Positions 3,091 through 13,562 of a DNA stretch of 21,273 nt are shown here, in pieces. The notes below the pieces were generated by a model. The model was given only the letters and a program-made list of their open reading frames with translations. It had not been told where the DNA came from and searched no databases. The first letter of the stretch is position 1. Every line of letters begins with the position of its first letter. The position numbers were made by a program, and so were the translations under genes. The DNA is taken from contig RFFU01000006.1 in the NCBI GenBank assembly GCA_003697085.1, forward strand, positions 1 through 21,273, written 5' to 3'. The DNA is from Candidatus Hydrogenedentota bacterium. Lineage in GTDB: Bacteria; UBA8481; J006.

Positions 3091-3846
3091 TTATTTGGCC
3101 GTGACGTAAATCTGGCCGTCGGCGCCCCGGTAATAAACGAAGCGCGCCTTCCGTGGTTTCCTGCGCGGGCGGCGCTTTCCGAAAAGAGAAGATACCTCGT
3201 CGTCGGGAATCTTTCCTCCGCTATAGGCCTTGTAATACCGCAGGACCTTCGGAACATATCTCCGCGTCTCGGGAAAGGGGGGGATTCCGCCGTATTTCTC
3301 GACGGAGGCGGGGCCGGCGTTGTACGCGGCAAGGGCGTAATCCATCCGGCCGAAACGGTCGAACATCATTCGGAGATAACGCGCTCCTCCCAGAATGTTC
3401 TCCCGCGGGTCGAACAAATTCCGCACGCCTACTATGCGTGCCGTCGAGGGAATCAGCTGCATCAACCCCTGAGCCCCATGCCGGGAAACGGCGTAGGGAT
3501 TGAAGTTGGATTCAACCTTCATTACAGCCCATATCAAGGCTTCCGAAAGATTGTATCTCCGCGCCGCCTCCGCAACGTAACGCCGGTATCGGCTCTGGGG
3601 GCCATAGGAGCCGATATCATAGGCCGTTTCGGCGATCGGCTCCGTCCCTTCTTCGAAGGCCCCATCCTCATCGATGTCCTTTCCCTTTTCCGGAAGAGGA
3701 ATATTGAACAACTTCAAATTTCCTTCGGCATCCTGATAAACGACGATCCGCGACCGATTCGATTCCGCGTGAAGCGGCGAGAGGAGACTCACGGAGAGGA
3801 GAAGAATCCCCGCGCCCCCGAGCCACCTCGACTTAGACGTGCCCAT
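3091..3846 (-). CDS. Secreted lytic transglycosylase (SLT/Slt70-like domain)
   Basis: This 251-residue protein starts with a signal peptide (charged start, hydrophobic residues 9-23, likely cleavage after LHA near 27). A short YxDxxGxLxLFN segment (residues 36-48) resembles DUF4124-like regions. The SLT catalytic domain spans about 85-205. Catalytic Glu112 lies in VMKVESNFNP, followed by GLMQLIPSTA (127-136), a NILGGARYL helix and AAYNAGP (173-179). A basic linker precedes a tail (ARFVYYRGADGQIYVT) that echoes the N-terminal segment. The family cleaves peptidoglycan glycan strands to 1,6-anhydro products. The start overlaps the upstream gene's 3' end by 14 bp, and GGAGGAG precedes the ATG. 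As the last gene of a flagellar operon it may open the wall for flagellum assembly (inference). Confidence 0.9.
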   Translation of the reverse strand: MGTSKSRWLGGAGILLLSVSLLSPLHAESNRSRIVVYQDAEGNLKLFNIPLPEKGKDIDEDGAFEEGTEPIAETAYDIGSYGPQSRYRRYVAEAARRYNLSEALIWAVMKVESNFNPYAVSRHGAQGLMQLIPSTARIVGVRNLFDPRENILGGARYLRMMFDRFGRMDYALAAYNAGPASVEKYGGIPPFPETRRYVPKVLRYYKAYSGGKIPDDEVSSLFGKRRPRRKPRKARFVYYRGADGQIYVTAK

Positions 3847-4318
3847 CCACTCTCCTCCCTTTTCGATTCCTCTGACTGAAACGATTTTTCAATTTCCGAA
3901 TCTTTTCGTTTCTTTTCCGCTGTCCGGCTATCTCCTCGCGAAACCGAACAAGCCGCTGGTGCAACTGCCCGCGCAAATGCGTCACGTCCCGCACCGCCGC
4001 CGTCGCCGCCACAATCTCCTGCCCCAAGCCGAGTTTTTCCGCGACGTCGCGGATCGTTCCCGCTTTCCGGGAGGATTCTACAAAACCTTTCCGGACGGCT
4101 TCAAGTTCTTCTCCGACCCGGCGGGCCCGAAGCGGAAAACTCGCCTCCTCCGCTTCAATCATATTCATCACGGTCTCCGGATTCTCCTCGAACTCCTCCA
4201 GCCACCCCCTGACCTTCCCGGCATACTCGTCGTACGTTGCCCGCAACCGGTTCAGCCCTTCAGCGAATTTTCTCCGCCACTTCTGCTCTGGTTGATCGTT
4301 CCGCGAAATCTCCGTCAC
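3833..4318 (-). CDS. Small coiled-coil protein, candidate FliT/FlgN-like flagellar chaperone
   Basis: I do not recognise this protein by sequence. From a GTG at 4318 it has 161 residues, starting VTEISRNDQPEQKWRRKF, and is rich in charged residues with long helical, coiled-coil-like segments and a very basic C-terminus (QRKRNEKIRKLKNRFSQRNR). The GTG overlaps the fliS stop (GTGA, 4318-4315), indicating translational coupling. An in-frame extension to 4399 runs inside fliS and is rejected. A small helical protein directly after fliS is usually FliT or another export chaperone. At 161 residues it is longer than typical FliT (about 100-120) and closer to FlgN, so the role is inferred from context only. 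Confidence 0.7.
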   Translation of the reverse strand: MTEISRNDQPEQKWRRKFAEGLNRLRATYDEYAGKVRGWLEEFEENPETVMNMIEAEEASFPLRARRVGEELEAVRKGFVESSRKAGTIRDVAEKLGLGQEIVAATAAVRDVTHLRGQLHQRLVRFREEIAGQRKRNEKIRKLKNRFSQRNRKGRRVDGHV

Positions 4319-4746
4319 GTTGTGATCGAGACACCCCCCGCTTGCGGCGGCGGTGGCGAGACGGTTCCGCTCTCCACGCGCTTGAAGACCTCGATCCACG
4401 TCTCGCGGAAATCCTCCAGATCCTTGATCACTTCCTTGGCGAGTTCCTTATCCTTGCGGACATTGGCGCGAACCATTCGATTCCTGATGTTCTCGTAGGC
4501 CGCCTCGATCGTCCGGGAGACCTCCCCTCCCTTCTCGTGATCCAGGGCCAAAATCAATTCCGTCATAATCCGTTGAGCCTTCATCGAGTTGTTATGAGCA
4601 TCCTGAATGTCTTCCTTCTCAACGGCCGAAATAAACTGCCCCATAAAGCGGATGGCTCCCTCAAAGAGCAACGTGATCAGTCGGGCCTGGCTGGCCGTCT
4701 GGATCGAAGTGTTGCGATACGCCTGGTTCGCCTGTCCGAAATCCAT
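4315..4746 (-). CDS. fliS: Flagellar export chaperone FliS
   Basis: This 143-residue protein matches FliS throughout: MDFGQANQAYRNTSIQTAS at the start, then RLITLLFEGAIRFM (the conserved L--LYDG-I-F helix), KAQRIMTELILALDHEKGGE and AYENIRNRMVRANVRKD. FliS binds the C-terminal helices of unpolymerised flagellin in the cytoplasm and prevents premature assembly before export. The ATG at 4746 is preceded by GGGAG with good spacing; the ten-residue upstream extension is unlikely. A proline-rich tail (SPPPPQAGG) follows the helical bundle. It sits 81 bp after the Maf gene and overlaps the next gene by 4 bp. FliS next to Maf is the classic arrangement for glycosylated flagellin. Confidence 0.92.
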   Translation of the reverse strand: MDFGQANQAYRNTSIQTASQARLITLLFEGAIRFMGQFISAVEKEDIQDAHNNSMKAQRIMTELILALDHEKGGEVSRTIEAAYENIRNRMVRANVRKDKELAKEVIKDLEDFRETWIEVFKRVESGTVSPPPPQAGGVSITT

Positions 4747-4827
4747 CCGCTCTCCCTTTTTCCTTTCCCTCTCCAACGGAGGACCACCGGTCCGCCTCTC
4801 ATCTCTCTTATTTTACCCCCTTTCTTC

Positions 4828-6102
4828 CTATTTCTCGACGTTTTTTCTCCGTTTCTCAAGCCAGTCTGATAGCGCCATCGATGGTACTCCTTCGATTTCA
4901 GCGCCGAAGGGGGCCGTCTGGATAAAGCGAACCTCGGGATTCGCCCGGGCCAGACGCGAAAAAAACCGGCGGTAAGAATCGAGCGCGGGGGTGGTCCAGA
5001 CGGTCTTTCCGGAAACGGAACGAACCGGACGGAGATTCCGGGTCCGACGAATCCGGAAGGCGCGATCCTCCCTACTGAAAAACCGATAGCGGAGCGGCGC
5101 CTGTGTTTCGCGCGAATGGGTCACTCCCTCGGCAAACGCGAGGTCCTGTCCGACGAGGACGATCTCGGAGACTCCCCACCCGAGAAGGATTCCCGCGGCG
5201 GTGGTGGAGACGGAACCTCCCGGATCGGCGACCCTTGCCGTCCTGGGAACTCCAAGTGAATCTTCCAGGGGATGGTTCTGGCCGTAGAAGAAGAGACGCG
5301 TCGCCCGACCGACGATCTCGGGCGGGGACAAGACCGAGGCCACGAGCGGTGTCTCGCCGAGCGCCGAGAGATACTCCGCCTTGACGGGTTGAGGATCGGT
5401 CGTGAAGCAATAATCGACGGGAAGAGCAGCCGTCCGCAGAAAGGGGAAGGCGGAATCGACCGAGACCAAGACCGTCTTCGGAAGCCGCTTGGTTCCCACG
5501 AGACCCCTCCAATCCTCGATCTGCCTCTCCAATCCCGGCCCGGCTGCGAAGAGAACGGCGGCGTATCCGCGGAACGCTCCGACCAATTCCGAAATCCATC
5601 TCGCTCTCGGAAAACTCTCCGCGTTGGCGCGGATGTTCCTTTCCCAAAGTTCCCCGAACGCCTCGATCGTAAGCCGCTGTTCGACCGCCTTCTCCAACGC
5701 CGCCTCGATCGCGCTTCTGACGCGGGAGTAATACCCGCGGTCTTCCTCGAGAACGACTCCCTCGAGGAGAACCAGTCTCTTCTTGCCGGTATCGATGAAG
5801 TCCAGCGCCTCCTCGTAGACCTTCTCGAAGGAGGGGGCGACGAGAAAGTCGAGATCGTCACGAAGCGCGGCGATCTCGGGATGGCGCTCGACGAGCCGGA
5901 CGCGTTCCGGACCGATCACATCGGCGAGGTACCCGAGGCCCGGGCTGAGAACGAAGACGATATCCTCTTCCCCCACCTTCTCCGCCTGTCGACGGGCCTC
6001 CTTAACAGGATCATAGCGGCTGTGGAAGAATTTTCCATTGACGAGAAGGGTATCTTGACCCGCGGGGGTTTTTCGACGTTCAAGTTTCAGTCGACCGCTC
6101 AC
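4828..6102 (-). CDS. Maf-type (DUF115/MptE-like) flagellin glycosyltransferase, short form
   Basis: This 424-residue protein has the motility-accessory-factor core at about 155-345: NIRANAE, VLFAAGPGLERQI (183-195), VSVDSAFPFL (213-222), FTTDPQPVK (233-241), YGQNHPLE, DPGGSVSTTAAGILLGWG (293-310) and IVLVGQDLAF (314-323). These are hallmarks of Maf proteins, which add nonulosonic acids such as pseudaminic or legionaminic acid to flagellin in the cytoplasm. An N-terminal segment (1-140) with VLSPGLGYLAD may be a degenerate duplicate of the same fold. Maf proteins commonly exceed 600 residues, so this is short. It starts at GTG (6102), 16 bp after the fusion gene. Function is well supported; the sugar is unknown. 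Confidence 0.85.
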   Translation of the reverse strand: MSGRLKLERRKTPAGQDTLLVNGKFFHSRYDPVKEARRQAEKVGEEDIVFVLSPGLGYLADVIGPERVRLVERHPEIAALRDDLDFLVAPSFEKVYEEALDFIDTGKKRLVLLEGVVLEEDRGYYSRVRSAIEAALEKAVEQRLTIEAFGELWERNIRANAESFPRARWISELVGAFRGYAAVLFAAGPGLERQIEDWRGLVGTKRLPKTVLVSVDSAFPFLRTAALPVDYCFTTDPQPVKAEYLSALGETPLVASVLSPPEIVGRATRLFFYGQNHPLEDSLGVPRTARVADPGGSVSTTAAGILLGWGVSEIVLVGQDLAFAEGVTHSRETQAPLRYRFFSREDRAFRIRRTRNLRPVRSVSGKTVWTTPALDSYRRFFSRLARANPEVRFIQTAPFGAEIEGVPSMALSDWLEKRRKNVEK

Positions 6103-6118
6103 GGCTCGCGCCGTCTTC

Positions 6119-8350
6119 TCACGAGGAGACGGAGATCAGAACGTCCGGTTTCACCTCGGCCACCGACCGGGTTCCCGTCAGGATCAAGGCGCGTTCCAAT
6201 TCCTCGCAGAGCGTCTCCCAAAAGAGGCGAACGCCCTCCTCGCCGGCCCCGACGGCGGCGATTGCGACCGGGCGACCGATGAGGCAGAATTCCGCGCCGA
6301 GCGCCAGCATCTTGAGGACGTCTTCGCCGGTCCGGATTCCTCCATCGACGCCGATCCGTATGGCGCCCTTGACGGCCGAGACAATCTCGGGGAGCACGTC
6401 CGCGGTACCCGGCATCTGATCCATTACGCGACCGCCGTGATTCGAGACGACGAGGGCGGCCGCTCCCGCCCGAACGGCCAGTTCGGCGTCATACGGGGTC
6501 ATCACACCCTTGAGGATGAACGGGCGTTCGGACTGGTAAGCCAGTTCCCGCAGTTCATCGACGCTTTTCGGAGAGACGGCTTGACCGCGGCGGCGCATCG
6601 TGAGGAAAGCAGCCCCGTCGATATCGACACCGACGGCGACACACCCTGCAGCCTCCGCCGCCCGGATTCGGGTCCGAATCTCCTCCTGCGACCGAGGTTT
6701 GAAGATCGGAACCGCATGACCGCGGACGAGGGATGCAGCCTCGAGGCCGATGCGGTATTTTTCCGGGGTCGCACCGTCGCCCAGCCACGCGATCGTCCCC
6801 GCCTTGACCGAACCGTTTACGACCGCCCGCGCGTACTCCTCCTCCGTGATCGCTCCGCCCATATTCGTCACGGTTCCGGTCACCGGAGCGGCCATCACCG
6901 GAAACGCAAGTTCGACGCCGAAGAAATCCGCGACCAGCCTGGGAGTGGAAACATCGTGAATGACCCGCTCGCGGATTCGATACTGTTCGAGCGCCTCGAG
7001 ATTGTTCATAAAGGTCTTCCCGGTCCCAATCCCTCCCATTCCGGGCATCATTCCGGCGCAATAGACGCCGTCGCAAACCCGGCAGGCGCGGCAGATCCTG
7101 CCGAACTTCTGCCTCGCCTGAGCCGCGACGATCTGCGGCGTCAGGGTCCGTTCGCTCTTCGTTTCGATCACAATCATCTCGAAGGCACGGCGGAGAATGG
7201 CCTCACACTCGTCGTAACTTGCTCCCGCCACAATCACGTGGCCTTGTTTCTCCATATTCGATCTCGGAGGATTCACGACGTCGCCGATACGGCAGTTGAG
7301 GATTACCTCCGCCACGCCGGGAAGGGAACGCGCATCCCGGATGCCGTCAATCTTGGTAACAACGCCCGGAGTGGAAATAATCGCGCGTTCCATCGCAACG
7401 CGATTCTGAAACCGCGGGATCTCCGGTTTCACGCCCAGCGCGATCTCGATGGCTCCCCGAATCATCGAGTAGCCGGTTGCCAGCGGAAAGGTGTGGGAGC
7501 TCATCCATCCGCCCGAAAGTCTCGCGGCGACTTCTCCCACCATCGGCCCGTCGGGAGTGAGTTTGATGTCGCCCTTGGCGGCACCGGTCGTGATTCCCAA
7601 GGCTCGGACCGCCTTCAGCATCACCGCCTCGACCTCCCGCAGGACCGAGTCCGGTTCCCGCGTCGGCAACGTGTGGCCGAGTTCCACGAAATAGGGCGGC
7701 AAACCGATGATCCGGTCGGCGATTCCGATGCAGATGATATCGCCATCCCAAACGAGGGCATCGATGGAAAGTTCGGGTCCGGTCATCATCTTCTCGACGA
7801 TCACTTCCCCGGTCGTGGAGCAGGACTTGGCATACCGAAAGGCCGGTTCCAGCGTTCCCGGACCCGTGGCCCGGCTCACCCCGCGCGCGCCCATATTGTC
7901 CACCGGTTTCAACACGACCGGATATCCGATTTCGTTTGCGGCCTCCTTCGCCTCCTCGATCGTCCAGACGCCCTTGAAATCCGGAACCGCGACGCCTCCT
8001 TCCCGCAGTGCTCGGCGCATCTTCACCTTATGTGTCGCATTCTCCGCGGCTTCGTAGTGGATGCCCGGCAACCCCAGCGCTCCCGAAACCGCGGCAACGG
8101 TGAGCGAAGCGTCGGTTCCGACGGTGAGCACTCCTCTCAAACTATGCCGGTACTGTCGCGCGACGCGGACCGTCCCCTCGACATCCTTCGTGGACATCAC
8201 GATCGGGATGTCCGCCAGCGCCAAACCGACGGCGTCGGGATTGTAATCGGTAACGAGCGTCTTGAGTCCCATCTCCCGCGCGATATTGATCGCAGGGACC
8301 TGCATCGGTCCTGCTCCGACAATCAGAATCGTCGCTTCGCGGCCCAGCAC
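6119..8350 (-). CDS. ATP-grasp ligase fused to FMN-dependent alpha-hydroxy-acid oxidase
   Basis: This 743-residue protein has two enzymes in one frame. Residues 5-110 form a Rossmann-like pre-ATP-grasp domain (ATILIVGAGPMQVPAINIAR), and 115-400 an ATP-grasp domain of carbamoyl-phosphate-synthase type (GYPVVLKPVDNMGARGVSRA, EVIVEKMMTGPELSIDALV, GEVAARLSGGW). A linker leads to a four-cysteine motif at 420-431 (CRACRVCDGVYCAG) and PGMGGIGTG, the N-terminal signature of bacterial lactate-oxidase-like proteins. The FMN_dh barrel (about 465-735) has FILKGV (Lys614), SNHGGR (His638) and GVDGGIRTGEDV. It should join an acid to an amine or similar with ATP, and oxidise an alpha-hydroxy acid to a keto acid. 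The GTG at 8350 follows GAAGG and lies 4 bp after the aldolase stop. The open frame to 8545 is only overlap with that gene. Confidence 0.85.
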   Translation of the reverse strand: MLGREATILIVGAGPMQVPAINIAREMGLKTLVTDYNPDAVGLALADIPIVMSTKDVEGTVRVARQYRHSLRGVLTVGTDASLTVAAVSGALGLPGIHYEAAENATHKVKMRRALREGGVAVPDFKGVWTIEEAKEAANEIGYPVVLKPVDNMGARGVSRATGPGTLEPAFRYAKSCSTTGEVIVEKMMTGPELSIDALVWDGDIICIGIADRIIGLPPYFVELGHTLPTREPDSVLREVEAVMLKAVRALGITTGAAKGDIKLTPDGPMVGEVAARLSGGWMSSHTFPLATGYSMIRGAIEIALGVKPEIPRFQNRVAMERAIISTPGVVTKIDGIRDARSLPGVAEVILNCRIGDVVNPPRSNMEKQGHVIVAGASYDECEAILRRAFEMIVIETKSERTLTPQIVAAQARQKFGRICRACRVCDGVYCAGMMPGMGGIGTGKTFMNNLEALEQYRIRERVIHDVSTPRLVADFFGVELAFPVMAAPVTGTVTNMGGAITEEEYARAVVNGSVKAGTIAWLGDGATPEKYRIGLEAASLVRGHAVPIFKPRSQEEIRTRIRAAEAAGCVAVGVDIDGAAFLTMRRRGQAVSPKSVDELRELAYQSERPFILKGVMTPYDAELAVRAGAAALVVSNHGGRVMDQMPGTADVLPEIVSAVKGAIRIGVDGGIRTGEDVLKMLALGAEFCLIGRPVAIAAVGAGEEGVRLFWETLCEELERALILTGTRSVAEVKPDVLISVSS

Positions 8351-8354
8351 AGCG

Positions 8355-9152
8355 CTACCTTCCCAACCGCCGGCGCAAAGCGCGGATGCGCTCTTGCGCT
8401 CCCGGCAGTCCTTCCACGCGGCAAAGGAGAATTTCGACCTCCAAAGCCGCTTTGACCGCGTTCGAAAGGTTCTGCTCTCCCGTCCGCGCCACCTCGAACG
8501 CAAAATTCCGCGTATTGACACAACTCGGTCCCACCTGTTCCACAAGCCCGCGGACTCTTCCCGGCGTGATTCCGCCGCCCACCGAGGTCACATACCCGCG
8601 ATGCCGTGCGGCTTGGATGACCCGACGCGTCCAGCGCGTTACCTTTTCCGCCTCGAGCGGTTCCCCGGCCGACTTCGCCAGATCACTTCGGCCCACGGTC
8701 ACCTGTCCCACCGGTCTGTCCTGCGCTTCCTCGAGAATGCGATCCAAAACGCGAAGGGCCGTTACCGTCTCGATATTGATCCCCAACCCCCAGGCCGTAC
8801 GGCGCCAAAAGGTCTTGTCGGTGCCGAGGCGAAATCGGCGAAAAATCCGCGTTCCGAAGACTTCTTTCGCGGCGGCCGCATAATCCCGCAATGCGTAGGG
8901 CGATTCCACCATCGGCGCAATCACGCGTCGAATTCCCAACTCGCGGCAGAGCCGAAGATCTCCTCGAGCCGCCGGCCCCCCGATCTTCATTTCGAAGAGA
9001 ATCACATCGCCGTATGTTTCCCACCTCCTCCGAACGTCGTCGTGGGTCAACCCCTCATCCTCGGTTGCAATCTTAAAGAGACGACAGCCGAACTCCTCAA
9101 CGAGCCGGCGCATACCGTCACGGACTCTTCTTTTTAAAACTCCGCTTGCCAT
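8355..9152 (-). CDS. HpcH/HpaI-type aldolase (citrate-lyase beta/aldolase superfamily)
   Basis: This 265-residue TIM-barrel protein has, in order, ILFEMKIGG (52-59), VIAPMVESPYALRDY (78-91, matching the PMV-S--EA segment), GINIETVTAL with Glu128 and VTVGRSDLAKSAG with Asp157. Glu128 and Asp157 align with the two divalent-metal ligands of HpcH/HpaI aldolases, which cleave or form 2-keto-3-deoxy acids with pyruvate as one partner. The substrate is unknown and the protein is divergent. The start is ATG at 9152 with GGGGAGG upstream; the TTG at 9173 is not needed. It overlaps the PseG-like gene's region by none (10-bp gap) and is 4 bp before the fusion gene. In this setting it may supply or replace the condensation step of a sugar-acid pathway (inference). 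Confidence 0.75.
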   Translation of the reverse strand: MASGVLKRRVRDGMRRLVEEFGCRLFKIATEDEGLTHDDVRRRWETYGDVILFEMKIGGPAARGDLRLCRELGIRRVIAPMVESPYALRDYAAAAKEVFGTRIFRRFRLGTDKTFWRRTAWGLGINIETVTALRVLDRILEEAQDRPVGQVTVGRSDLAKSAGEPLEAEKVTRWTRRVIQAARHRGYVTSVGGGITPGRVRGLVEQVGPSCVNTRNFAFEVARTGEQNLSNAVKAALEVEILLCRVEGLPGAQERIRALRRRLGR

Positions 9153-9162
9153 TCCGCCTCCC

Positions 9163-10167
9163 CTAAAATCCAATCAGTTCCCGTATCTCCGTCACGATCC
9201 GGTCCAACCCCTCCCCGTCCACCAGTTCCCGGATTTTTTCCGCCATTCCTTCTCTTCTTTCCTTATCGGCCAGTTCTTTCAAGATCCCGGGGAGCTTCCG
9301 CACGTTTTCTCTCGTTCCCACGCCGAGATCGATCACGGCGCCGGCTTGCCGAAACGGTGTCACGTTCCGGGCTTGGACGTCGCTTTGCGAAAGCACAACG
9401 GCTGGGACCCCCAGAAACGCCGCTTCACAAAGTGTAATCCCTCCCGAAACGACAGCAACATCGGCGGAAGCGAACGCTTTACCGAGATGCAGCGGCCGAT
9501 CAAGAATCCGAAACTCCCGCGACGTCTTGAGCAGAACCCGATTCAGTTCCTCTTCCTTCTTGAACGCGGGACCGACCACCACCATAAGATCGACATCGGA
9601 ATCGAACGCGTCGAGGGCCTTGATCGCCTCGATCGTTATTCCCGCCGGATCACTTCCCCCGAAGGCGAGAAGGACCGACTGAAGTTCACGCACGCGACGA
9701 CGCGGAGCCACGGCCGTGATCTCGGGCGAAAGGATCACGTAATCGAGCCCAAGAAGATAGCGGGTGCCGGTTACCATCTTCTCGGGATTGGTCCGCGTGG
9801 TGAGATTGGCGTCCACGACGAGATCCGCGAGATAGCGGCCGTCGCCGAGATCATCGAACGTGACAACGGCGCATTCCGCCTCCTTGAACGGAAGCATCCG
9901 TTCATGAGTCGTGTTGCCGACATCCATCACGACAACCGCGGGACCGACGTCCAACACGGCGTCGGCTTCCTCCTCCGGGTCTTCGAGGATGATCGTCCTC
10001 CTTGCGCCCCGCTCTCTCAAAAACGGCTCCGCCGAAGCCGCGCGGGAGGTCACGAAGACAACCTCGTCGGCTCGCTCCCGAAGCGCTCGGCCCAAAACCG
10101 CCATCCGCGCCGCGTTCCCCAGCCCGATCTCGGGCGAGGCATCGACGCGAATCGCGATCACCGCCAC
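9163..10167 (-). CDS. PseG-like nucleotide-sugar hydrolase/glycosyltransferase-fold protein
   Basis: This 334-residue GT-B-like protein resembles PseG (UDP-2,4-diacetamido-trideoxyhexose hydrolase) and SpsG. The N-terminus IAIRVDASPEIGLGNAARM fits the R-D-S--IG-GH--R signature. FGGSDPAG (about 180) fits the GG-DP nucleotide loop, and SGGITLCEAAFLGVPAVVL fits the C-terminal donor-site motif. PseG removes UDP from the sugar before condensation to pseudaminic acid. The histidine of the GxGH motif, catalytic in Campylobacter PseG, is Asn18 here, so it may not be a classical hydrolase. The best start is GTG at 10167 with only a weak ribosome site; no in-frame ATG exists nearby. It lies 28 bp after the acetyltransferase gene. 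Confidence 0.8.
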   Translation of the reverse strand: MAVIAIRVDASPEIGLGNAARMAVLGRALRERADEVVFVTSRAASAEPFLRERGARRTIILEDPEEEADAVLDVGPAVVVMDVGNTTHERMLPFKEAECAVVTFDDLGDGRYLADLVVDANLTTRTNPEKMVTGTRYLLGLDYVILSPEITAVAPRRRVRELQSVLLAFGGSDPAGITIEAIKALDAFDSDVDLMVVVGPAFKKEEELNRVLLKTSREFRILDRPLHLGKAFASADVAVVSGGITLCEAAFLGVPAVVLSQSDVQARNVTPFRQAGAVIDLGVGTRENVRKLPGILKELADKERREGMAEKIRELVDGEGLDRIVTEIRELIGF

Positions 10168-10195
10168 AGCGACACCATCCCCGACACCTTTTTCC

Positions 10196-10786
10196 TTAGA
10201 GATCTTCGGCGGCCCGTGGAAGGAAGTCCTCTTCTGTCACCCGGTAAAGGCGGCCGCACCGCGCGCAGCGGTATTCACCGGTCAGGGTGCCGATCCTTCC
10301 CGCCAGTTCTCCGCAGGCACAGACATAGCCGTAGGGGCGAGCCGGCGCACCGACCACGACCGTGTAAGGAGGTACGTCCTTCGTCACCACGGCCCCGGCG
10401 CCGACGAAGGAGTACTCGCCCAGCGTCACGCCACAGACGATCGTTGCGTTGGCACCGATGGAGGTTCCGCGTTTCACCAGTGTGTCGCGAAACTCGTCCT
10501 TCCGCTCCACCTCGGCACGAGGATTGAGCACATTCGTAAAGACACAGGACGGACCGCAAAAGACTCCGTCCTCGAGGGTGACTCCGGTATAGACGGAGAC
10601 GTTGTTCTGAAGTTTACAGCGCGAGCCGATCCGAACGTTTCGGTCCACGAAAACATTCTGGCCGAGGATGCAGTCTTTCCCAATTACGGCTCCCGGCATA
10701 ATGTGGCAAAAGTGCCACACGCTTGTTCCGTCCCCAATCACCGCTCCTTCGTCCACCACGGCCGTCGGATGTATCTTCGCTCCCAT
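10196..10786 (-). CDS. Left-handed beta-helix N-acetyltransferase (WbpD/WlbB-like) with zinc-ribbon-like tail
   Basis: This 196-residue protein is built of hexapeptide repeats from residue 4 to about 148 ([51 protein letters not shown]). [11 protein letters not shown] (83-93) and [13 protein letters not shown] are typical of UDP-amino-sugar acyltransferases such as WbpD/WlbB, which acetylate a 3- or 4-amino group of a nucleotide sugar. After residue 152 the tail has Cys156 and Cys158, then Cys174 and Cys177 (CACGE...CARCGRLY), resembling a metal-binding ribbon. The ATG at 10786 is preceded by GGAAAGG. It is second in the operon and would act early, on the amino sugar before the PseG-like step. 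Confidence 0.87.
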
Positions 10787-10851
10787 TGCGCCTTTCCTTT
10801 CTCCTCCCTATCGGCTCGTCTCCCGCCGCCGCCTTTCCGCCGCGTGCTTTG

Positions 10852-11313
10852 TCATCGCGGCGGGCGGGATGCCTTCTCTCGCGCCCCGTTCCCCGTTTGG
10901 CCTTCCTGCACGTCGCTTTCTTCACAAAGTCCGTTCAACCACTGCCTCAATCGTTTCCCTTGCCCCGCCACAACGGCTTCGGCAGCGACCGCCGTGACCG
11001 CCCCGTCGAGCGCCAGCAGCTCGAGCGCCGGGCGCGGATCTTCTCTCCGAACCATCTCCGCCTTCGAAAGCAGACGGTTCAGCACGTCGTTGAGCCGCTT
11101 CCAATCGTCTTCATTCGCGGAACACCCGTCGCATACCTCACCGAAAAGATCGCGATAGACCTCTGTGAACTCCGCCAGCGATTCCGCCCGCGGGTCGAGC
11201 AGAGGCTCGGGGAGCGCCACACCCGCACGATCTCGATTCTCCTTCTCCGCCTTCAAGACTTCCTCGCGTCTCCTCGTGGTTGCTCTTTTTCGTTTTCCCT
11301 TCCTCTTCCCCAT
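10852..11313 (-). CDS. Hypothetical protein, first gene of the flagellar-glycan operon
   Basis: This 153-residue protein matches no family I recognise. It begins with a strongly basic segment (MGKRKGKRKRATTRRREEV), followed by an acidic, helix-rich core (SLAEFTEVYRDLFGEV, WKRLNDVLNRLLSKAEMV, PALELLALDGAVTAVAA). It ends in a tail rich in Gly, Arg and Glu. Two core cysteines occur as CDGC. No signal peptide or membrane segment is seen. The start is uncertain: ATG 11313 has only a GC-rich upstream stretch, and an in-frame GTG lies at 11352. It is 65 bp from the acetyltransferase gene and on the same strand, so it is probably cotranscribed. The regular amino-acid pattern supports a real gene, but function is unknown. 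Confidence 0.6.
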   Translation of the reverse strand: MGKRKGKRKRATTRRREEVLKAEKENRDRAGVALPEPLLDPRAESLAEFTEVYRDLFGEVCDGCSANEDDWKRLNDVLNRLLSKAEMVRREDPRPALELLALDGAVTAVAAEAVVAGQGKRLRQWLNGLCEESDVQEGQTGNGAREKASRPPR

Positions 11314-11456
11314 ACGCCGCCCCGGGATACTTCTCCAGGATACTTTCCTCACGACCGAGGTCCATTGTTTTTCGATAGGGTTGATAGGGGAACAGGAAAG
11401 GGAGACGAAAAGGGGATGGGAAGCGCTTCCTGCGACCGAAGGCCTGCCTCCTTCGT

Positions 11457-11663
11457 TGTTATGCCGAGGCGCTCCAGCGCCCAGGAATCCCCGCCATAAG
11501 TCATCCCGCGCTGGCGGCGCCCCCCCTCACCCCGACCCTCTCCCCGGCGGGGCGAGGGAGAATAAGACGGTTGCCGGCAATCTCGGGGGATTCCTCGTCG
11601 GGCTACGCCCTCCTCGGAATGACAGGGAGAGCGTCGCTCCGCGCCGTCTCGCCCGGAATAACA
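11457..11663. repeat. Dispersed palindromic repeat, copy 4 (168 bp plus tail)
   Basis: The left end is diverged (TGTTATGCCGAGG, 11457-11469) and the right end is intact (CCTCGGAATGACA, 11612-11624). The internal GAGGAATCCCC-like, CCCGACCCTCTCCCCGGCGG and GGGGGATTCCTCG blocks match copies 2 and 3. A tail repeats GTCGCTCCGC...CCGGAATAACA. It lies just upstream of the flagellar-glycan operon, close to where its promoter should be. Confidence 0.75.
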
Positions 11664-11693
11664 TCGGGGAGGTGATGGATACGTTGCTTTGTG

Positions 11694-11983
11694 TCCGGAC
11701 CGGAGTTCTGCAGGTTCCCGAAAAAAAGGATACACCACAAAGACACAGAGATCACAGAGGACGAAATGAAAAAAAGGAAGAGACCCCAGAAAACCCGCGG
11801 ATTCAACGCATTGGGGTTTTTCTTTTCCTCTTTTCCGCGCGGGGTAAACCTTTCCTTCAAGTTTTACGCTTTCAGAAAACAACATTCGCCGGTCTCGTCT
11901 TCCTTTCTTTCTCCGTGACTTCTCCGTGTCCTCCGTGTTCTCTGTGGTTTCCTCGTATGCGACTTGCAGGAGTCCGGTCCGGA
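11694..11983. mobile_element. About 290-bp MITE-like element with 21-bp terminal inverted repeats
   Basis: The ends are inverted repeats matching at 18 of 21 positions: TCCGGACCGGAGTTCTGCAG on the left (11694-11714) and TTGCAGGAGTCCGGTCCGGA on the right (11963-11983). Just inside are a second pair of arms: CACAAAGACACAGAGATCAC near 11729 and TCCGTG-containing direct repeats at 11910-11950. The centre has no gene. The right 74 bp (11905-11978) match 20297-20370 at 69 of 74 positions. No transposase and no clear target-site duplication are seen, so mobility is inferred from structure only. Confidence 0.6.
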
Positions 11984-12139
11984 GGTGGATGTGGCAAGCC
12001 AGGGAGACATAATCGACGAGGCAAAAAAGAATTTACGTGAATCGCTTGAACTTTTTTTGAAATGGCTTCGGCAGCGGTAAATAAAAAAAGGCTTCATGAG
12101 GAGATTTATGTTACGAATGTGAAGGTAAACGTCGGGTAA
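11967..12139 (+). pseudogene. HicB-family antitoxin remnant (5'-truncated and frameshifted)
   Basis: From about 11979 the frame reads PEVDVASQGDIIDEAKKNL and RESLELFL, the core of HicB antitoxins (CPELDVASQGD--EEA--NL-EALELF). It then meets a stop at 12078. One base shift at the run of seven T (12052-12058) restores the expected end: FFEMASAAVNKKRLHEE and IYVTNVKVNVG then TAA (12137-12139), which is the usual HicB C-terminus. One extra T would repair the frame. The N-terminal part is missing because the MITE-like element ends at 11983, inside or right next to the gene. No hicA is visible. A sequencing error in the T run could mimic the frameshift, but not the lost 5' end. Confidence 0.7.
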
Positions 12140-12190
12140 ATTCCAAACTCTTTCAGGCAGGGAACTTTGTCGCAGTTCGGCCGGCTCTGG

Positions 12191-13255
12191 CTAAAGGTTT
12201 CGTTTCCAAACTCCAGGAATCTTCCTTCCGCAGTCCGGGCAGCGGCCCTCGCGGGTGACACGACAGGAGAAGACCTGAAAGTGTCTTCGTTCCACAAGGA
12301 CCGCACCGCAGCCGGCGCAGGCGGTATCTTCCGTCCTTCCTACCCTCCCGGGACGGTTCCCGCAATAGACATAACGCATTCCCTCCTCGCGGGCGGTCTC
12401 GAAAAGACGAAGCAGATCCTCGGGCTGCGTTGCGCGTTTGTCGCGCATCTTGTAATCCGGATGAAACGCGGTCAGATGCCACGGGATTTCGGGATCGATC
12501 CCCGCGAGAAACCGCGCCATCCTTCGAATCTCCTCCTCGTCGTCGTTCCACTCGGGAACGATCAAAGTGACGATCTCCGTGTGAAATCCACGTGTCACCA
12601 CCTCGGAAATCGAATCGAGAACCCGCGCAAGAGACCCGCCGAGTTGGCGATAGGCGGATTGGTTCATCGCCTTGAGGTCGATCTTGATCATATCGAGTCG
12701 GGGCCGGAGGAAATCGAGCACTTCGGGAGTCGCGTTTCCGTTGGAGACGAACGCGGTCAAGAGCCCCGCTTCGCGCGCACGATCGAAAACGGCCGCGGAC
12801 CACTCGGCCGTGATCAACGGCTCGTTGTAGGTCGAACAAATGATCGCACAGTCGTACCGCCGGGCGGCCTCGACGAGGTCCGCCGCATCGATCGGACGCA
12901 GCGATTCCGTTGCCGCCGGATCCTTGAGCGCCTGCGAAGTCAGCCAATTCTGGCAATAGGGACATTTTAAGTCACAACCGAGCATCCCGAAGGAGAGGGC
13001 GGAAGCGCCGGGAAGGACGTGGAAGAAGGGCTTCTTCTCGATCGGATCGACCTGCACTCCGGCGACGTACCCGAACGGGACCTTCAGCGTCTCTCCCTCG
13101 ACGAAACGAACCTTGCATGCCCCACGACGATTCGGTTCCACGACGCACCGGTGGCCGCAGGCAAGGCAACGAATCGCACCGTTCCGTTCCTTCCGTACAA
13201 GGGCCTCCGCAGCCTCGGAGGTGTATCGATCCAGAGGTGTCAACAATCCCGCCAT
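12191..13255 (-). CDS. amrS: AmmeMemoRadiSam system radical SAM enzyme (AmrS)
   Basis: The protein has 354 residues from the ATG at 13255. An N-terminal cysteine set (IRCLACGHRCVVEP, then RRGACKVR) precedes the radical SAM cluster motif GCDLKCPYCQNW (CxxxCxxC). Later come CSTYNEPLI, FVSNGNATPEVL, DLKAMN and WHLTAFHPDYKM, all typical of the AmrS family, and a C-terminal zinc site (CAGCG...CPDCGRKIPGVW). AmrS is a pyruvate-formate-lyase-activase-like protein found with Memo and AMMECR1 homologues; those partners are not in this window. An ATG at 13267 would overlap the perfect -10 TATAAT (13266-13271), so the ATG at 13255, 10 nt after it, is chosen. Confidence 0.9.
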   Translation of the reverse strand: MAGLLTPLDRYTSEAAEALVRKERNGAIRCLACGHRCVVEPNRRGACKVRFVEGETLKVPFGYVAGVQVDPIEKKPFFHVLPGASALSFGMLGCDLKCPYCQNWLTSQALKDPAATESLRPIDAADLVEAARRYDCAIICSTYNEPLITAEWSAAVFDRAREAGLLTAFVSNGNATPEVLDFLRPRLDMIKIDLKAMNQSAYRQLGGSLARVLDSISEVVTRGFHTEIVTLIVPEWNDDEEEIRRMARFLAGIDPEIPWHLTAFHPDYKMRDKRATQPEDLLRLFETAREEGMRYVYCGNRPGRVGRTEDTACAGCGAVLVERRHFQVFSCRVTREGRCPDCGRKIPGVWKRNL

Positions 13256-13265
13256 CACGACTTCC

Positions 13266-13295
13266 ATTATAACGGAAAACAGACACGTCGGCCAA
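13266..13295 (-). promoter_or_regulatory. Promoter of amrS, apparently giving a leaderless transcript
   Basis: On the minus strand a perfect TATAAT (13271-13266) follows TTGGCC (13295-13290) at 18-nt spacing. The expected transcription start (about 13259-13257) lies 2-4 nt before the ATG at 13255, leaving no room for a ribosome site on the mRNA. Confidence 0.5.
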
Positions 13296-13314
13296 AAGGG
13301 GAAATTCTTGCTAC

Positions 13315-13362
13315 AGAGAACTTTGCCACCGAGACCCAGAGACTCAGAGACACAGAGAAGAA
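13315..13362. repeat. GAGACxCAGAG short-repeat arm
   Basis: CCACCGAGACCCAGAGACTC and AGAGACACAGAGAAG are degenerate tandem units. They resemble the left arms at 11729-11760 and 20148-20170. This is probably a half-copy of the 11694-11983 element family without its right end. Confidence 0.55.
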
Positions 13363-13417
13363 AAGTGGAAGGGAAGAAAAACGGAGGAACTCCTGAACGA
13401 GGAATCCCGCATCACCG

Positions 13418-13562
13418 TGTCATCCCTCGTTCGCCGCAAGGCGAACGAGGGATCTCCCCCACGCGGTATCCCGCGCTGGGGGGCGGTCGGCTCCCCTGGG
13501 GGATTCCTCGCTTTCGCTCGGAATGACATGGCGGGTGCTGGCAGGATGCCTGCGTTCCCAGG
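13418..13562. repeat. Dispersed palindromic repeat, short copy 5 plus hairpin tail
   Basis: It starts TGTCATCCCTCG and contains a perfect stem, CCCTCGTTCGCC / GGCGAACGAGGG, then CCACGCGGTATCC, GGGGGATTCCTCG and CTCGGAATGACA (ending 13528). The tail holds GGCAGGATGCCTGCGTTCCCAGG. The CCCGACCCTCTCC central block of the 173-bp copies is absent, making this an internal-deletion derivative. Confidence 0.75.

Follow-up and report, generated by a model that had tools for sequence, protein, structure and literature searches.

A probable Maf-type flagellin glycosylation operon with an apparently undescribed aldolase and ATP-grasp/FMN fusion module in Candidatus Hydrogenedentota

The sugars carried by flagellin influence flagellar assembly, motility and recognition, and Maf enzymes are known for their work with nonulosonic acids. 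Here we analyze a nine-gene operon on the minus strand (positions 3091–11352) of contig RFFU01000006.1 from a Candidatus Hydrogenedentota bacterium, a stretch of 21,273 nucleotides referred to below as the window. The closest described systems are the Maf-dependent pathways that place pseudaminic or legionaminic acid on flagellin in Campylobacter, Helicobacter, Aeromonas and Clostridium. In Shewanella oneidensis, the sfmABCDE locus encodes, near a Maf gene, the ATP-grasp protein SfmE, which is required for full modification of a flagellin that bears a 274 Da nonulosonic acid and, added to it, a further group of 236–264 Da thought to contain no nitrogen (PMC3765264). The sps legionaminic acid pathway of Bacillus subtilis employs SpsG (PseG-like), SpsE (NeuB) and SpsF and serves the spore crust, not flagellin (PMC7439481). 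The flagella of Clostridium botulinum are reported to carry di-N-acetylhexuronic acids (PMC13317340). The WlbA-E/Wbp pathway to 2,3-diacetamido-2,3-dideoxy-mannuronic acid serves the O-antigen.

The window corresponds to contig C109; the genome it belongs to, 3.2 Mb long and split over 145 contigs, is 94.6% complete. The nine-gene cluster proposed in an earlier, sequence-only reading of this DNA is real: its nine open reading frames (ORFs) overlap or sit at most 65 bp apart. As in the Maf-dependent pseudaminic and legionaminic acid systems, a Maf-like flagellin glycosyltransferase (4828–6102; a match to the Maf/MptE-like family PF01973 above cut-off, E 1.3e-17), a PseG-like hydrolase of uridine diphosphate (UDP)-sugars (9163–10167; TIGR03590, E 2e-37) and the flagellin chaperone FliS (4315–4776; PF02561, E 6.7e-33, with TIGR00208 above cut-off) are encoded together. 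The window genome differs from those systems in that its other pathway genes are scattered, in that a WlbB/WbpD-like hexapeptide N-acetyltransferase (10196–10786; PF00132) takes the position of PseH or LegH, and in the presence of two extra proteins: an aldolase-like member of the HpcH/HpaI superfamily (8355–9173; PF03328) and a fusion of an ATP-grasp ligase with a flavin mononucleotide (FMN)-dependent domain (6119–8350, likely start GTG 8350). The Shewanella locus has NeuB, a thiamine pyrophosphate (TPP) enzyme, a reductase and a methyltransferase as partners, with no such aldolase and no FMN domain described, and the reported B. subtilis pathway includes neither an aldolase nor an ATP-grasp/FMN fusion. 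In the openly searchable literature, outside which most subscription journals lie, we found no description of the aldolase-fusion pair in flagellin glycosylation, SfmE being the sole parallel. The operon is thus of a known kind, while the module formed by the pair appears to be undescribed. At a probability of roughly one half, we read the locus as a Maf-type flagellin glycosylation operon with an unrecognized two-protein module that probably builds an acyl substituent and attaches it to the sugar.

The pair occurs in several little-studied bacterial phyla, and in some of these it again accompanies sugar genes. Four aldolases were combined into a profile for comparison with 386 genomes spread over the domain, and matches with E below 1e-40, taken as strong, were obtained in 15 genomes outside the phylum. 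The gene order is PseG, aldolase, fusion, Maf, NeuB and FliS in genome G147, and SpsF, PseG, aldolase, fusion and Maf in G284; the window Maf is similar to the Maf-like proteins of both. Two other genomes (G019 and G166) encode SpsF-PseG as a single protein next to the aldolase and the fusion, and another (G133) has PseG followed by the aldolase. In G394, SpsF and PseG are divergent from the aldolase, and a flagellin gene is located on the same 7.5-kb contig. The aldolase is present in 4 of 19 genomes of the phylum of G147, in both genomes (2/2) of the phylum of G019 and in 39 of 77 of the phylum of G293. In a tree of 42 sequences, this aldolase clade splits with support 1.0 from relatives that belong to polysaccharide loci or metabolic loci, and within the clade the fusion adjoins the aldolase at 28 of 34 loci. 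The linkage of the aldolase and the fusion to Maf is therefore conserved in other genomes, and together with the links to PseG, SpsF and FliS it extends beyond the phylum. The gene orders in G147 and G284 and the 28/34 adjacency argue for the flagellin glycosylation reading.

Within the phylum, the comparison comprises two genomes, that of the window and G001. The latter carries the operon as two blocks, one with the small first protein, WlbB, SpsF, PseG and the aldolase (on C77) and the other with the fusion, Maf, FliS, the coiled protein and the lytic transglycosylase (on C180, where divergent genes precede the fusion); in the window genome both blocks are joined in one operon. Identities between the two genomes are 70% for WlbB, 63% for the fusion, 47% for the transglycosylase, 42% for the aldolase, 41% for Maf, 38% for PseG and 30% for the coiled protein. 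The fusion architecture is retained in full-length homologs in other phyla. The recurrence of both blocks in G001, together with the conservation of the fused architecture, marks the operon as more than a chance arrangement of genes.

Flagellin is present in the window genome, with nine PF00669 matches, some of which are hook-associated proteins. It was found in 44 of the 46 genomes tested, the exceptions being G458 (70% complete) and G065; the latter and G221 contain only a deeper aldolase type. For the aldolase clade as such, the count is 43 of 44 genomes across twelve family labels, a figure inflated by relatedness, and flagellin was found in 4 of 14 well-known control genomes. In the phylum of G293, an SpsF homolog directly precedes the flagellin array in seven of the nine flagellin regions read. 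The 43/44 count and the position of SpsF before the flagellin arrays speak for the flagellin glycosylation reading. The seven loci of that phylum (L161, L162, L164, L166, L173, L174 and L175) show an SpsF-like gene, a tandem flagellin array and then, by eye, a Gfo/Idh-type oxidoreductase.

Several genes of the nonulosonic acid type are encoded outside the operon. The sequence-only reading had the aldolase and the fusion standing in for NeuB/PseI and a cytidine monophosphate (CMP)-sugar synthetase. This part of it is not supported: the window genome has two full-length NeuB genes in trans, on C121 and C75 (bit scores of 358 and 294, where the NeuB cut-off is 400), G001 has three full-length copies, and in G147 NeuB belongs to the same cluster as the aldolase and the fusion. 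On C121, NeuB is part of a second cluster (L019, 6359–12239) with PseG-like, SpsF-like, radical SAM and sulfotransferase-like genes. PseB-, PseC- and LegC-like proteins are also encoded in trans, with strong matches below the curated equivalog cut-offs. No CMP-sugar synthetase equivalog match was found in the window genome, where SpsF-type nucleotidyltransferases are encoded on C111 and C121. The C111 protein is 45% identical to the SpsF of the G001 cluster and likely its ortholog, and these two SpsF homologs weigh against the idea of a missing CMP-synthetase, which was set aside. Near-canonical nonulosonic acid genes thus occur elsewhere in the genome, but the linkage of the pair to Maf is conserved, and of the proposal that a sugar acid is built and put on flagellin, the flagellin-glycan operon itself is supported. 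The NeuB, SpsF and PseB/PseC/LegC-like genes in trans are a further argument for the reading given above. Elsewhere in the genome, three tandem Maf/MptE-like ORFs were observed shortly upstream of carA/carB (L040, 3–4883 on C138).

The N-terminal half of the fusion (about 7151–8350) is an ATP-grasp ligase with an L-amino-acid-ligase C-terminal domain (PF13535, PF18603). It is 36–38% identical to ligases in capsule or exopolysaccharide loci of Enterococcus hirae and Parabacteroides, which also hold aminotransferases. The C-terminal half (about 6119–7150) is an FMN-dependent 2-hydroxyacid dehydrogenase-like domain (FMN_dh PF01070, 5e-66), in which the catalytic Lys (K609) and H633 and R636 of the NHGGR motif are invariant in 27 fusions. 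The relationship to the capsule and exopolysaccharide ligases, the L-amino-acid-ligase domain and the invariant Lys and NHGGR residues also favor a module that makes and attaches a sugar substituent. The FMN half opens with an invariant C-x2-C-x2-C-x4-C motif, common to stand-alone relatives, that could be the site of a metal or an iron-sulfur cluster. One such stand-alone relative, with the same four-cysteine motif, was seen in a lactate-utilization-type locus of Carboxydocella (L027, 8983–10020).

For its partner, aldolase holds as a superfamily label only. Taken alone, the window protein matches PF03328 at 7e-5, just under the curated cut-off, and 13 of 13 relatives match this family. A search with the profile of the aldolase family hits class II aldolases of the HpaI type, with YfaU (2vws, 5e-7) as the best match, and the metal ligands E135 and D164, aligned with those of YfaU, are invariant in 42 sequences. 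The window family thus resembles the HpaI/YfaU class II pyruvate aldolases in matching the superfamily fold and in keeping the Glu and Asp that bind the metal, but the His and Arg of the first half-barrel appear to be replaced, by Asp/Ala and by an invariant Lys (read by eye, the profile alignment having spanned the second half only), and K34, E38, K63 and T221-R222 are invariant instead. Hence the HpcH/HpaI-type aldolase of the sequence-only reading stands as a superfamily assignment only. A single-sequence structure prediction had a confidence score (pLDDT) of 47 and was not used. Relative to aligned homologs, the window protein contains about 14 extra in-frame residues, inserted ahead of the strand that bears the metal-ligand Glu. 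At two loci (L106 and L107), the deeper aldolase clade occurs in sugar clusters whose other members include a TPP enzyme, a HAD phosphatase and DegT aminotransferases.

We infer the order of the steps, their substrates, the role of the acyl substituent and the use of this sugar by this Maf as follows. A nonulosonic (sialic-like) acid activated with CMP would be produced by two enzymes of the operon, the PseG-like hydrolase and the WlbB-like acetyltransferase, with NeuB condensation and SpsF-type activation supplied from elsewhere in the genome. The aldolase-like protein and the fusion would form one two-protein module that makes and attaches a substituent of this sugar: the former may form or cleave a C–C bond adjacent to a 2-oxo acid, the oxidation state of a 2-hydroxy or 2-oxo acid may be set by the FMN domain, and the ATP-grasp domain may couple a carboxylate with a sugar amino group. 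That the module makes an organic acid and attaches it to the sugar amino group is suggested by analogy with Shewanella SfmE. Maf would then transfer the sugar to flagellin in the cytoplasm, FliS would chaperone flagellin, and the lytic transglycosylase may clear a passage through the wall for the flagellum.

Several observations weigh against this reading. The His and Arg of HpaI-type enzymes appear to have no match in the aldolase. The 43/44 flagellin count is a raw count in the genomes tested, and the presence of a WlbB-like enzyme suggests a 2,3-diacetamido uronic acid instead of a classical nonulosonic acid precursor. Finally, the pair stands alone, without sugar genes, in family f31 and in the phylum of G293. 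In the latter, the fusion adjoins the aldolase at 18 of 20 loci read, the remaining two being of the deeper aldolase type, and the pair is mostly flanked by two ATP-citrate lyase genes (by eye), with no sugar gene. Five genomes (G356, G030, G312, G177 and G293) have the aldolase-fusion pair without sugar genes.

The pair could accordingly serve general 2-hydroxy or 2-oxo acid metabolism, or another component of the cell, its place in a flagellar operon being incidental or secondary. Its conserved position by the ATP-citrate lyase genes, its occurrence in f31 and G356 apart from any sugar genes, and the FMN-half relative in the Carboxydocella locus all favor this explanation. On balance we judge it unlikely: links to PseG, SpsF, Maf and FliS have turned up several times independently, and among tested genomes the pair is almost confined to those that bear flagellin.

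The identity of the acetyltransferase raises an alternative for the sugar itself. The sequence-only reading took it as a hexapeptide acetyltransferase of nonulosonic acid synthesis; its best match of solved structure is instead WlbB (3mqg, E 9.4e-67, residues 3–185 of 196), by a wide margin over other hexapeptide transferases of known structure, and a NeuD/PglD assignment was rejected since WlbB fits far better. As a WlbB/WbpD enzyme it would act on UDP-2-acetamido-3-amino-glucuronic acid. The PseG-like protein, for its part, scores 129 bits against TIGR03590, below the equivalog cut-off of 154. The flagellar sugar could then be a 2,3-diacetamido uronic acid made by the WlbB route, on which the PseG-like and other enzymes act. 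The WlbB-like enzyme is the best-conserved operon protein between the two members of the phylum, a Gfo/Idh oxidoreductase near NeuB on C75 could serve as WlbA (by eye), and the C. botulinum precedent is of this type. However, a nonulosonic acid better suits the PseG-like and SpsF-like enzymes as well as the known Maf enzymes; no WlbB-like gene is found beside the aldolase-fusion pair in the neighborhoods read in other phyla; and, the WlbB-type acetyltransferase apart, the Wlb/Wbp genes are absent from this operon. We regard this alternative as rather improbable.

Equally doubtful is a bolder version of the proposed pathway, in which the aldolase-like protein would form a sugar acid or carbon branch without NeuB-type phosphoenolpyruvate condensation and the fusion would complete a new class of flagellin sugar in several little-studied phyla. 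The plain substitution, in which the aldolase takes over from NeuB by joining pyruvate or a related 2-oxo acid to the PseG-released sugar and the fusion tailors or activates the resulting non-canonical sugar acid, draws on the aldolase lying directly downstream of PseG in several phyla, on the retained class II metal ligands and on clusters with no NeuB within them (G019, G166 and G284; cluster read only), but it is made unlikely by the NeuB gene within the G147 cluster and those in trans in both members of the phylum, by the apparent replacement of the HpaI-type His and Arg, and by the many genomes that have the pair without PseG.

The remaining genes of the operon lie at its two ends. Gene 1 encodes a small helical protein (10852–11352) of uncertain start, which the sequence-only reading ended at 11313; G001 has a small ORF at the same position (L038, 3358–3666), with no significant similarity (E 0.15). 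A coiled protein is encoded between FliS and the transglycosylase (3833–4318, likely start GTG 4318; 3833–4399 as listed) and is 30% identical to the protein at the same place in G001 (E 3e-18). Family-profile scans gave no match for either protein. The last gene (3091–3846; PF01464, E 8e-29) encodes an SLT-type lytic transglycosylase, a more precise name for what was earlier called a wall hydrolase, and it has the same position in G001. In the order of transcription, the intergenic distances as listed are 65, 28, −11, 19, 16, 51, −85 and −14 bp; with the GTG starts at 8350 and 4318, the distance between aldolase and fusion becomes 4 and the overlap of FliS with the coiled protein becomes 4 bp. 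A scan for sigma-28-like promoters gave matches no more numerous than chance, and no RNA family was found in the window. Outside the operon, two small overlapping minus-strand ORFs (970–1505) look, by eye, like a toxin-antitoxin pair, with a DinJ/RelB-type antitoxin (1242–1505) and a YafQ-type toxin (970–1284). Interspersed repeats occupy intergenic parts of 506–2000 and 11483–13482; for example, a 210-base unit is found at 661 and at 1731 in copies 91% alike.

What is known of flagellin-sugar biosynthesis rests on a few cultured species. A conserved module that in some phyla accompanies PseG, SpsF and Maf, and that among the tested genomes occurs nearly only together with flagellin, indicates a branch of flagellin sugar chemistry that is yet to be explored and that may be approached through two recombinant proteins.

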